From positions 23,133,261-23,197,260 of the forward strand of contig NC_003074.8 in NCBI RefSeq assembly GCF_000001735.4: a stretch of DNA of 64,000 bases, given 5' to 3'. This document shows, in pieces, positions 21,498 to 26,584 of the stretch (within the stretch, counting starts at the first letter, position 1; each line of letters starts with the position of its first letter). The translations under genes and the position numbers were made by a program. The notes beneath the pieces were generated by a model, which made no database searches, was not told the DNA's origin, and was given only the letters and a program-made list of their open reading frames with translations. The stretch comes from Arabidopsis thaliana (Eukaryota > Streptophyta > Magnoliopsida > Brassicales > Brassicaceae).

Positions 21498-23111
21498 ATG
21501 GGAAGGGCGCCGTGCTGTGAGAAGGTAGGAATTAAGAAGGGGCGCTGGACGGCGGAGGAAGACCGGACTCTCTCCGACTACATTCAGTCCAACGGCGAAG
21601 GATCATGGCGTTCTCTTCCCAAAAATGCCGGTAAAGTTTTTTTTATCTATACAGTACTCTGTCTCTCGACTATCGCATGCATCTCATAAGATAGTTTTTT
21701 TGTTTGGTCAAAATTTATAAGAGAATCTATATGCATCGAGAAGTTAATTAATCTTACGTACGGTTCAATTATACACCATGAGTTGTAAAAAAAATTAAAA
21801 TAGAGACTTGATTTTTTTTTTTTCTATTTAATGTATCAGTTTCTATAAGGAATGCATAATATTTTAAAGTACATAAAGTGTTTATTGATAATTCAGACCA
21901 AATTGCCTTCTTGTTTTATTTACATGTATATATGGACTGTAACATCACAAATAAAACGATAATTTATTTCAATATTTAGGAAAAGATGAGTAATCGCTGC
22001 AGGCATTATTATGCCTTAATTAAAATCTGACGTACATTTTAAAAAGGGCTAAAGAGATGTGGAAAGAGCTGTAGATTGAGATGGATAAACTATTTGAGAT
22101 CAGACATCAAGAGAGGAAACATAACTCCCGAAGAAGAGGACGTCATTGTTAAACTGCATTCCACTTTGGGAACCAGGTAACTTTTTCATTTGAACAAAAG
22201 TTTATTAATGTCGATATATTTCCAATAGAAAAAGTACACTATCACGTGAAATCATAAATCAAACTGTTGCTGTGTAACGTCGTGAAAAAAAACGTTTTTA
22301 CAACAAAAAATAAGAATAGCGTCAACGCTAATTAAATTGCAGGTGGTCAACAATTGCGAGCAATCTACCGGGAAGAACAGACAACGAAATAAAAAACTAT
22401 TGGAATTCTCATCTCAGCCGTAAACTCCACGGTTACTTCAGAAAACCAACTGTCGCCAATACCGTCGAGAATGCGCCTCCGCCTCCTAAGCGTAGACCTG
22501 GAAGAACCAGCAGATCCGCCATGAAACCCAAATTTATCCTAAACCCTAAAAACCACAAAACCCCTAATTCTTTTAAAGCAAACAAAAGTGACATCGTTTT
22601 GCCAACTACGACAATAGAGAATGGAGAGGGAGACAAAGAAGACGCATTAATGGTGTTGTCAAGTAGTAGCTTAAGTGGAGCAGAGGAACCCGGTTTAGGA
22701 CCATGTGGTTATGGAGACGATGGCGATTGTAACCCAAGCATTAATGGCGACGATGGAGCTTTGTGTCTCAATGACGACATTTTCGATTCTTGTTTTCTAT
22801 TGGACGACTCTCATGCTGTCCACGTGTCCTCATGTGAGTCGAACAACGTAAAAAACTCTGAGCCATATGGAGGGATGTCAGTTGGGCACAAAAATATCGA
22901 AACGATGGCTGATGATTTCGTTGACTGGGACTTTGTATGGAGAGAAGGTCAAACCCTTTGGGACGAAAAAGAGGATCTTGATTCGGTTTTGTCGAGGCTG
23001 TTAGATGGAGAGGAAATGGAATCTGAGATCAGACAAAGGGACTCCAACGACTTTGGAGAACCGTTGGATATTGACGAAGAAAACAAGATGGCTGCTTGGC
23101 TTTTGTCTTGA
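21498..23111 (+). CDS. MYB11: MYB11, R2R3-MYB activator of flavonol biosynthesis
   Basis: Three exons, 21498-21630, 22047-22176 and 22343-23111, give 343 residues and follow the conserved R2R3-MYB intron positions. R2 begins at [10 protein letters not shown] (residue about 13) and R3 at [10 protein letters not shown]; both carry the regularly spaced Trp residues. The bHLH-interaction signature in R3 is absent (the stretch reads DVIVKLHS), as expected for regulators that act without a bHLH partner. Subgroup-7 motif 1 ([13 protein letters not shown]) is at residues about 137-149 and subgroup-7 motif 2 (AAWLLS) is the extreme C-terminus. Subgroup 7 in A. thaliana is MYB11, MYB12 and MYB111, which activate CHS, CHI, F3H and FLS1. 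The acidic C-terminal half is a plausible activation region. Length and locus order indicate At3g62610. Confidence 0.95.
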
Positions 23112-23686
23112 AAGATTTGACACCATGCATATGCCTTTTTCTCCGTTAGATTTTAGCAAAGACCCCACGTGGCAGGATCTGGTCGGTTTGTCAATAGAAC
23201 ATGTTTGTCCCCTAGCGTTCGTTTTTTAGTTTTAAATGTATTTATATTCTTTTTTATTTCTTTTCATGTGTAAATACGATTTTGGCGGTGGCAAATAAAC
23301 AAAATAAAGTCGATCTTCTTAGTTCAATTACATATAAGCGATCCATTGATGATTACACCATTGATAGCCAACTTAAGTAATCTTTCGACTTTCGTATATA
23401 TGTATACAAATATAATAAGAAATTTAAAATACAAAAAAAATATAAATAAAATTCAGTTCCATATTGTGAATCAGCAATTCTCACTATTGGTACATAGTCC
23501 AACACTTGCTAGTTGCATTCTAGGTGGAAGTATTTCAAAGAAACAAGTTTCTCTGATAGACTAATAATAGACCAAAACCCGAGCAAATTTCAAAGCATGT
23601 CGCCAACCACAACTCTTTTTTGTGTGTAAATGTTCACTGGTAAAGTGGTAATTAATGAACGTTTTGAATTTTGATTAAAAGCTATA
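23112..23686. other. MYB11 3' flank
   Basis: AT-rich downstream sequence. No gene is visible before the inverted-repeat element that starts near 23687. Confidence 0.5.
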
Positions 23687-24060
23687 AGACCATCTCCAAC
23701 GAGAGGATGTAATCAAAAAATTGTTGGGCTCTCTTGTTTAATGACAATAAAAATAAATTAAAACTGATAAAAATCAAGAGAGTCGGCTTTCTGGAGAGAG
23801 TTTTGAGAATTTGAGAGAACCGTCGATGTGGCAACATGTGATTGGGTTTTCAATTTCAACAAAAAAATAAATGTGTGCGCGTTCTGTTCTATCTTCTTTC
23901 TCCTCTCTGCCCAAACGAAATTGACCAAAAGATGCAAAGCCCAATCATCGTTTCTTCTGAAAACTTTTCGCATTTGATATCTTTTCTTTGAAACTGAAAT
24001 CAAGATACACAAACTGAAACCAATTTGTTCACCAAAAGAAAATAAAAATGCGTGGGTTTC

Positions 24061-24573
24061 GATTTCAAAGATATTCAGGAAAAGATCTCCGATAGCTTTC
24101 GTCTATGGCAACACTCTTTTCAATTCTGGGTTCGAGCTTCGTGGTTTTAAAAGCTTGTAATTTCGTGTGATCAAGCTCCTGCGACGCCGTTTGATGCGAT
24201 TCAACTTTGAAAATTTGATGAAAAGCCTCTTGGTTATGCTTCTATTGCTCAGGTATTATAGATTATGGTGGAAACTTAACAATTAAGTAAACATGATTGA
24301 GTTAGAGTATTTAGGAGCTTGTAAAGCAGAAGGTCTTGGTGATGGACCCATAATGAAGCTGTATATTTATGTTGTAATTGAGGAAGATAATCTGGTCATA
24401 ATGCTTTCTAGAATTAGCTACTCTTGCCGTAGAATTATTATCTCTTGACGTGGAATTGTAGCAACATTGTCAAACTCTGGTTATGTTTATACTAAGACAA
24501 TATCATTTATTTGCTTTCTTAGGTTCACAGAGGAAGTATAAAGGGTAACAAGATGAATGTTGTTGTAAAGGTG
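24061..24573 (+). pseudogene. Captured fragment of an ABC1/UbiB-type atypical kinase gene
   Basis: Reading 24061-24252 in one frame gives DFKDIQEKISDSF...FQFWVRA, then a KLVISCDQAPATPFDA segment and FDEKPLGYASIAQ, followed by a GT at 24253. An AG at 24521-24522 precedes 24523-24573, which reads VHRGSIKGNKMNVVVKV. These segments match, in order, the N-terminal and early kinase region of plant ABC1K proteins as I remember them, including the ASIAQVHR signature across the splice junction. Two in-frame stops (24148 and 24208) and two apparent internal deletions show it is broken. The retained intron indicates capture as genomic DNA, not retrotransposition. The parent gene cannot be named without a search. 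Confidence 0.7.
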
Positions 24574-24579
24574 AACATT

Positions 24580-24960
24580 ATCGGAAGTTCTAGATGGGGC
24601 TGAAGCCTCTGCTCGAGCTATGACAGAGGTCGACCCCAAAGGAATTTTCAAGTCCACGGGTCTGTTTTCCTTTTACTGATCACTCTGTTTTTTTTCCTTT
24701 AACTTATCTATGGAGTAAATGTGAAGCCATACTAGTCTCATTTGAGCCCTCTAAAATGCAGGCTATGGTAACTATTTGTTTATGCTTGCTCCGTCAACCA
24801 ATGAATCATTCAGACAAATGGTCATTTCCGATGCAGTCTCTGTTTTGATGCCGAGGTAACTGAGATTACTTATGGTAACTCTATGGTTCTTGATCATGGT
24901 TGGATTGACACTTTGAACAAGAAATGGGATTTGGTTCATTGCATTGAGGTTAGCTTAGGT
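24580..24960 (+). pseudogene. Unidentified coding-like fragments within the TIR element
   Basis: Downstream of the kinase fragment, 24592-24660 can be read as an open stretch ending KGIFKSTG. After an intron-like gap with an AG at 24760-24761, reading continues as GYGNYLFMLAPSTNESF, and a shifted frame gives EVTEITYGNSMVLDHGW up to about 24950. Base composition is less AT-rich than the surroundings. I do not recognise the source protein. It is probably a second captured gene, broken by a frameshift. Confidence 0.4.
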
Positions 24961-25247
24961 TTGGCTTTTAATAAAGTTTCTATTTGAGTGGAATTGTAAA
25001 ATAGAATTGATGTCTAGTACGTGTTTGATGAAATTCCTCTAAGAGTGAACCTTAAATCGTGTGTATTAAGCTTTGTTTCTTGATAAACAACTAATGATTT
25101 AGAGTTCTCTTCACGTTATTGTGATGGAAGTTTTATGTTCATACACTCAAATGTTCTTTTATGTTCGAACTCTTTGCTATATATTTGTTGTAACCAAATT
25201 TTAACCATAACACTTAAACACATAATCACAAATTTTCAAAACTTTAT

Positions 25248-25330
25248 CTACAAGTTTAAGAAGCAAAACACTTTAACCATAAGTTTAAGAACCAAAATAC
25301 ATAACCACAAGTTTAAAGAACCAAAAAACA
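25248..25330 (+). repeat. Degenerate short tandem repeat (AAGTTTAAGAA-type)
   Basis: Three spaced copies of a motif like AAGTTTAAGAACCAAAA occur at about 25250, 25280 and 25310. They lie in the 3' part of the TIR element and may be subterminal repeats. Confidence 0.55.
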
Positions 25331-25612
25331 CTTAAATTTTTGTTCTTTTTTCAAATCTATTTTAAAATGTTTGAAAAATGAAAACAATGTATATTTAATA
25401 TTTTATGATTTGCAATAATTATTAAGTTTTAGTAAATAAAATAATTTTAAAAGAATAGTTTTTTTCAGAGAACCCCATTAGAGAGAATCTGTCATTGGAA
25501 TATGAAAAACTAAAAAAAAAATAAGCAAAAGTTCTCTTGTAATTTTTGTTGAAATTTAATCAAAAAAAATTGAGAAAACCTCTCCATGAGCTCTCTCCAT
25601 TGGAGATGCTCT

Positions 25613-26584
25613 AAAAGCTTAATAGGAGCCTTGCCAGTTGCCACAACTTATACGACTAATTCAGACTCTCTCGTTTCTTTTAAAAGGATGATATTGTTCC
25701 TAAGCGTAGAGTAGACGTTTTAGTAAATAGTAATTGAGGAAGAAACAAAAACACATAACGAGGGTCGCTATCTTTCGCTTAGAAGTACGATTTGGTCCAT
25801 TGTCATTGTCACTTTTGTAATGCCTCACGTGATGCCATGCACTTTTGTCTCTCTTATTTATTTCCCCTTTTTTTACCGGGTGACTAAATGATACTTCAAT
25901 ACTTATTTACATAGAATAAAATCTTATTAAGTTCATGGGACCGATGGACCATTTCTACGAATTAACCGCAAACTATCGGACGCATTTCATATGCCGACAT
26001 GGTACTATAGTAGAAGAAAGAAAAACAATTGTAATACAAAATTATGTACATCATATACAGAACTATAAAACGCAGAAAAAATAAATAATACAAAATTGTT
26101 TACATCATGTAAATGCAGAAAATGTAAAGCTCTCTAGTACAAACAAATTATTGATGATAATGTTAAATTCCTATTGGTTAACTCATGAGTTAGATTAATA
26201 GAAAGTTAGAAACGGTAACTGTATATATACCCAAAATAATGAAATATATCAATAGAAGCAGTAATACGATTAGCGGCTAACAAAAAAAAGAATGGTATTA
26301 ATATATATATATTTTTTTTGTCGGCAATGGTATTAAAATGGAATTTATTGTACTATCATTTTAAAGGGCCCAAAAATGGCCTATAAACCAACCAGACAAT
26401 TGCACACATTTGTCGGTAAGAGAGCACAATAAATCGTTTTAACAATGGGTACGAAGAAGCCTCTAGGCCCAATAAAACAGACCTAGTAAGATAAACAGGC
26501 CATCAATACGGCGTCGTTTGATAATATTCAATCGGCGTTAGACCAACTTCTTCTCCTCTCTTTCTTCCCGGCGGAGCGACTACG
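25613..26584. other. Spacer upstream of the RRM-like gene
   Basis: AT-rich spacer. It contains an imperfect 54-base-period duplication at 26033-26128 and the short promoter of the gene starting at 26585. No coding region is seen. Confidence 0.5.
26033..26128. repeat. Imperfect direct duplication, period 54
   Basis: Copy 1 (26033-26082) and copy 2 (26087-26128) share AATACAAAATT, TACATCAT and GCAGAAAA blocks in the same order with a few mismatches and indels. Confidence 0.7.

Follow-up and report, generated by a model that had tools for sequence, protein, structure and literature searches.

Next to a Myb gene on chromosome 3 of Arabidopsis thaliana lies what is in all probability a PIF/Harbinger transposon that carries no transposase and in which a patchwork of host DNA has taken the place of the interior, that is, a Pack-PIF (we put the probability of this reading at roughly 90%). 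The element occupies positions 23688–25611 (1924 bp) of the window, the 64,000-nucleotide stretch C3:23133261-23197260 that was analyzed, and by the duplication rule of its family, it is flanked by TAA on both sides. All genome searches covered the 119.7 Mb of the A. thaliana genome in 7 contigs. A frame with a Pfam match to the Myb DNA-binding domain ends at 23111, 576 bases before the element, so the initial annotation was right in placing the element ∼0.6 kb downstream of a Myb gene. We take this frame to be MYB11, a flavonol regulator, following that annotation. The link between the element and MYB11 is one of proximity alone.

Results

The element opens with a 14-base terminal inverted repeat (TIR) at 23688–23701 on the plus strand (GACCATCTCCAACG) and closes with its counterpart at 25598–25611 (GAGCATCTCCAATG on the minus strand). 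These ends had been described as imperfectly inverted, and they are: 12 of the 14 bases are identical, an agreement equaled by 1 of 200,000 random pairs of 14-mers from the window. A 17-base terminal motif, allowed at most two mismatches, occurs twice in the window, at the two ends of the element (mean in shuffled sequence, 0.11). With the same tolerance, an 18-base motif has 378 matches across the genome, compared with 14 for a reversed-pattern control. Beyond the TIRs, the left family end (23688–23871, plus strand) is common to 11 other places at 70–92% identity, and the right family end (25339–25611, plus strand) is common to many. These results uphold the earlier expectation that other genomic copies share the ends. 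When the left 241 bases were used as a genome query, the 11 other places and one row at E 1.1 were returned; the right 311 bases gave 46 rows, including the element itself. Three of the right ends (C4:860929-861165, C5:10901815-10902080, and that of C5:12268171-12272934) each lie ∼220 bases from a transposase match. Divergence among the family ends is about 20–30%. The closest left-end relative, L010 (C3:17000608-17000729), is 92% identical, and its match stops after ∼113 bases.

The target-site duplication was established from the family as a whole. Of the 378 motif matches, 100 were listed, and among these we paired neighbors that face each other at distances of up to 8 kb. In each of the 10 resulting pairs, the left and right trinucleotides agree, as TAA in four pairs and as TTA in six; the motif pattern itself favors TAA or TTA (TWA), and the free part of this comparison is the agreement between left and right. 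Right-end trinucleotides read T[AT]A on a strict reading in 18 of 21 cases, with a TWA background of 5.2% in the window, the 21 being distinct alignment rows with duplicate loci merged and with L033, whose alignment is shifted by one base, left out. Counting L031, which has an A in place of a T and so falls outside the strict reading, the figure becomes 19 of 21. Exceptions to the rule are C2:4871082-4872576 (TTA on one side and TAG on the other), L017 (TGA on the right), and L010 (TCA on the left in place of TWA). An empty site was reconstructed for a single sibling, C2:1876742-1878770 (L018 and L025), which lies inside a P450 gene. Rejoining its flanks with one TAA yields a continuous 119-residue frame that contains no stop and matches the Pfam p450 profile over positions 330–445 with 119.8 bits. 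Because the family pairs and the sibling's empty site both give a TWA duplication, we read the window copy as TAA (23685–23687), element (23688–25611), and TAA (25612–25614). Both copies of TAA were read from the sequence. The initial annotation had given 23687–25612, which has the place right but extends one base beyond the element at either end.

One relative retains what the window element lacks. The locus at C5:12268171-12272934 (L055, L058, and L042; 4764 bp) is homologous to the window element at its left end as well as its right, is flanked by TTA on either side, and encodes a 450-residue frame, counted from the first start codon, that matches PF04827 (375.8 bits) and PF13359 (37.4 bits). 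Both scores lie above the cut-off, and both identify a DDE transposase of the PIF/Harbinger type. The A. thaliana transposable element catalog, as given in PMC7385966, contains three Harbinger families, of which one probably includes this relative. Full PIF/Harbinger elements also have a second, Myb/SANT-like protein, according to a passage of PMC8616336. Upstream of the transposase at C5:12268171-12272934 are two frames with a stop between them, which have only subthreshold Pfam matches and a Myb-like look by eye. None of the 63 PF13359 and 71 PF04827 matches in the genome falls within the window element, which agrees with the initial statement that there is no transposase inside.

Other classes of element were compared with these features. 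Helitrons have neither TIRs nor a target-site duplication, and the window element has both. CACTA elements have ends that start with CACTA, as PMC8903248 describes them; the window ends begin with GACCA and GAGCA. For PIF/Harbinger elements, the traits named in PMC2213677 are TIRs of 14–25 bp and a 3-bp TTA/TAA target-site duplication, and the window copy has TIRs of 14 bp flanked by TAA. A G(N)5GTT motif is absent from both window ends, GACCATCTCCAA and GAGCATCTCCAA; where PMC2213677 introduces this motif, it serves as a criterion for mining Medicago elements and is not stated as a requirement of the superfamily. Like elements of the Pack-TYPE, the window copy has no transposase and holds fragments of three identified genes between its TIRs and target-site duplication.

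The initial annotation had called the element Pack-MULE-type, with AAAAGCT as the duplicated flank. Pack-MULEs have Mutator ends and a duplication of ∼9 bp, longer than that of PIF/Harbinger elements, and here the duplication would be AAAAGCTAT / AAAAGCTTA. The gene fragments in the interior would suit such an element, as would the seven shared flank bases, which are rare by chance (a shared stretch of at least 7 bases between 12-base flanks arose in 74 of 20,000 random pairs), and Pack-MULE-like structures in Arabidopsis are recorded in the text of PMC7385966. However, the relatives duplicate TWA only, the two 9-bp flanks agree at no more than 7 positions with the left flank one base off the initially annotated end, the ends are ∼14 bp long, and the transposase of the relative with both ends is of the PIF/Harbinger type. 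The 3-bp TWA duplication, the short ends, and the transposase-bearing relative therefore point to PIF/Harbinger and not to Mutator, and we consider a Pack-MULE highly improbable. What survives of the earlier designation is a gene-capturing TIR element without a transposase; its Mutator class does not. The AAAAGCT repeat is probably a coincidence and not a duplication, since the family duplicates TAA or TTA and there is a gap between the left AAAAGCT and the end. The flank of L010 also aligns loosely at AAAAGCT (as AAGAGCT).

Between the family ends of this Pack-PIF, the interior matches four places on three chromosomes, and the three identified gene pieces all run sense along the plus strand. 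The first two pieces match an ABC1-kinase gene on C5, whose frame matches PF03109. Piece 1a (23945–24138, plus strand) comprises sequence upstream of that gene, its start codon, and part of its first exon (donor C5:20488474-20488652, minus strand; 21 mismatches in 178 gap-free columns). Piece 1b (24135–24582, plus strand) comprises an exon, an intron, and an exon (donor C5:20487650-20488101; 38 mismatches in 397 columns). Together, they begin ahead of the start codon and reach into a second exon, and they meet at a shared AGCT, where about 376 donor bases are missing. The kept intron, GT...AG at 24253–24522 on the plus strand when the sequence is read against the aligned donor, means that DNA and not mRNA was copied. 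It also bears out the coding debris with splice sites that had been noted initially.

Immediately after piece 1b come 130 exon-like bases (24583–24712, plus strand; EVLDGAEASARAMTEVDPKGIFKSTG) that matched only the element itself in the genome DNA search, and a search of solved structures with 26 residues likewise returned nothing; the sequence from which they came may have disappeared or diverged too far. The stretch also contains a possible GT splice site. A GH17/X8 glucanase gene whose frames match PF00332 and PF07983 (donor C4:14451592-14451899, minus strand) contributed its 3′ end as pieces 2a and 2b (24713–24853, plus strand), which overlap the domain-bearing frame by its last ∼16 bases only and then run downstream. 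Piece 3 (24858–24934, plus strand) is a 77-bp sucrose-phosphatase exon, 92% identical to C2:15054260-15054336, with 20 of 25 residues identical and a PF05116 match in the donor frame. Piece 4 (24935–25069, plus strand) spans 135 bases and matches C4:5804275-5804418 at 84%, a place where the one nearby frame tested gave no Pfam match. A genome query with 25030–25215 found only itself, even though its first 40 bases belong to piece 4, so a search of this kind misses short or diverged matches. Over all pieces, 95 of 932 gap-free columns differ from the donors, about 10% (the 932 count 15 window bases at overlapping junctions twice), and with this divergence, the capture may be old and the element may also be present in A. 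lyrata. A whole-genome search revealed no second copy of the interior.

We also considered whether the captured chimera has an output. From the locus numbering after MYB11 (AT3G62610), the element is presumably AT3G62620, and it could then be an expressed functional gene or act on MYB11. An RNA-seq table in PMC7170825 includes AT3G62620 as "Sucrose-phosphate related," and the 77-bp piece is the sole significant phosphatase-like stretch in the window (one further alignment has E 0.74), both of which would fit such a gene. However, the phosphatase piece amounts to ∼25 residues, and the captured kinase start runs into a stop after 15 codons. With its frame broken in this way, the kinase protein is most likely not made, and a functional role for the chimera, or an effect on MYB11, appears improbable. 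The annotated sucrose-phosphatase–related gene is probably explained as transposon debris.

Three further members of the family, not picked at random, were searched for captured DNA. Fragments found elsewhere in the genome are present in four of four members, counting the window element, with gene status tested for few of them. For the member at C2:1876742, a genome search with its first 1679 bases found interior pieces that match a place on C5 and a gene for an LRR receptor kinase at C1:9447912, the only identified donor of the three. Another stretch of this member matches C3 at 94%, C2 at 92%, and several more places at 71–80%, about ten in all, and it may be a repeat or a gene family. A copy of the same member at C5:7512973-7515004 is 99.2% identical over the full lengths; the two lie at different sites, each with TAA, and the flanks of the C5 copy hold no long open frame. 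In the member at C2:4871082, one match is to C5:21325876 and another to C5:15414384, the latter with weaker relatives on C3; the member at C4:11699263-11700351, which lies between two copies of TTA, includes pieces that match C2, C3, and C1. We did not count C5:21325876 among the captured host genes: a frame close to it shows a weak, subthreshold NAM-associated match and is like the second protein of C5:12268171-12272934 by eye. This resemblance was seen for the frame in L063 (C5:21325300-21326600), which may be a Harbinger-derived gene. We propose tentatively, and with somewhat less than even confidence, that a little-noticed Arabidopsis PIF/Harbinger family habitually builds multidonor chimeras from short pieces of unlinked genes by template switching at the DNA level and keeps spreading them, as in the 99.2% identical copy pair, one of which sits in the P450 frame.

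Discussion

The structure of the window element suggests a route for its formation. A PIF/Harbinger transposase supplied by another locus and similar to that of C5:12268171-12272934 would bind the ends and excise the element, mobilizing it in trans, and insertion would follow at TAA or TTA, which would be duplicated on both sides. Host DNA would be taken up by repair of a gap in the element or left by it, with the repair switching among several unlinked templates. Clear microhomology is present at one junction only, the AGCT within the kinase gene. Alternatively, two nearby insertions could move as one unit together with the intervening DNA, and several rounds of such fusion could build a mosaic; this is the route proposed in PMC8903248 for Pack-CACTA and maize Pack-PIF elements, and later deletions could make its products mimic abutting fragments. 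However, the fragments from three chromosomes abut with no family sequence recognized between them, and ∼376 bases were lost from one donor gene at AGCT. Neighbor fusion fits less well than template-switching repair because the fragments abut in this way, and we regard it as unlikely. With donor sequences available from unlinked places, the junctions would allow neighbor fusion and template switching to be tested against each other.

The Pack-PIF kind is already known, and the window copy is a newly described Arabidopsis member of it. Among the open-access titles and abstracts listed, none reports this element; one paper mentions At3g62620. Published accounts differ in the sources of Arabidopsis Pack elements that they name: MULE and CACTA in the text of PMC7385966, and MULE, CACTA, and Harbinger in a passage of PMC8616336 that gives no locus for A. 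thaliana. The survey part of PMC8903248, which used its own TIRs, reports no new Pack superfamily in Arabidopsis. The Pack-PIFs presented in that paper (Gisby and Catoni 2022) are those of maize and rice, and they share with the window element the PIF/Harbinger TIRs, the TTA/TAA duplication, the lack of a transposase, and the gene fragments. In contrast, its maize example has captured stretches of 163 and 58 bp and exists in many copies, whereas here, the interior is single copy and matches four places.

Elements from other superfamilies resemble the window copy in different respects. The Arabidopsis Pack-CACTA elements (Catoni et al. 2019), as they are described in PMC8903248 and PMC13317346, come from the same species and also combine gene pieces with the lack of a transposase; however, they have CACTA ends, and their movement was observed directly, whereas the window element is known from sequence alone. 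The rice Pack-MULEs and the Arabidopsis MULEs with gene fragments that are treated in PMC7385966 likewise combine fragments of several genes into a mosaic, but Pack-MULEs belong to the Mutator superfamily. Most descriptions of gene shuffling by transposons concern grasses and other transposon families, and the window element adds an Arabidopsis case from PIF/Harbinger, with its boundaries placed to the base and its donors named.
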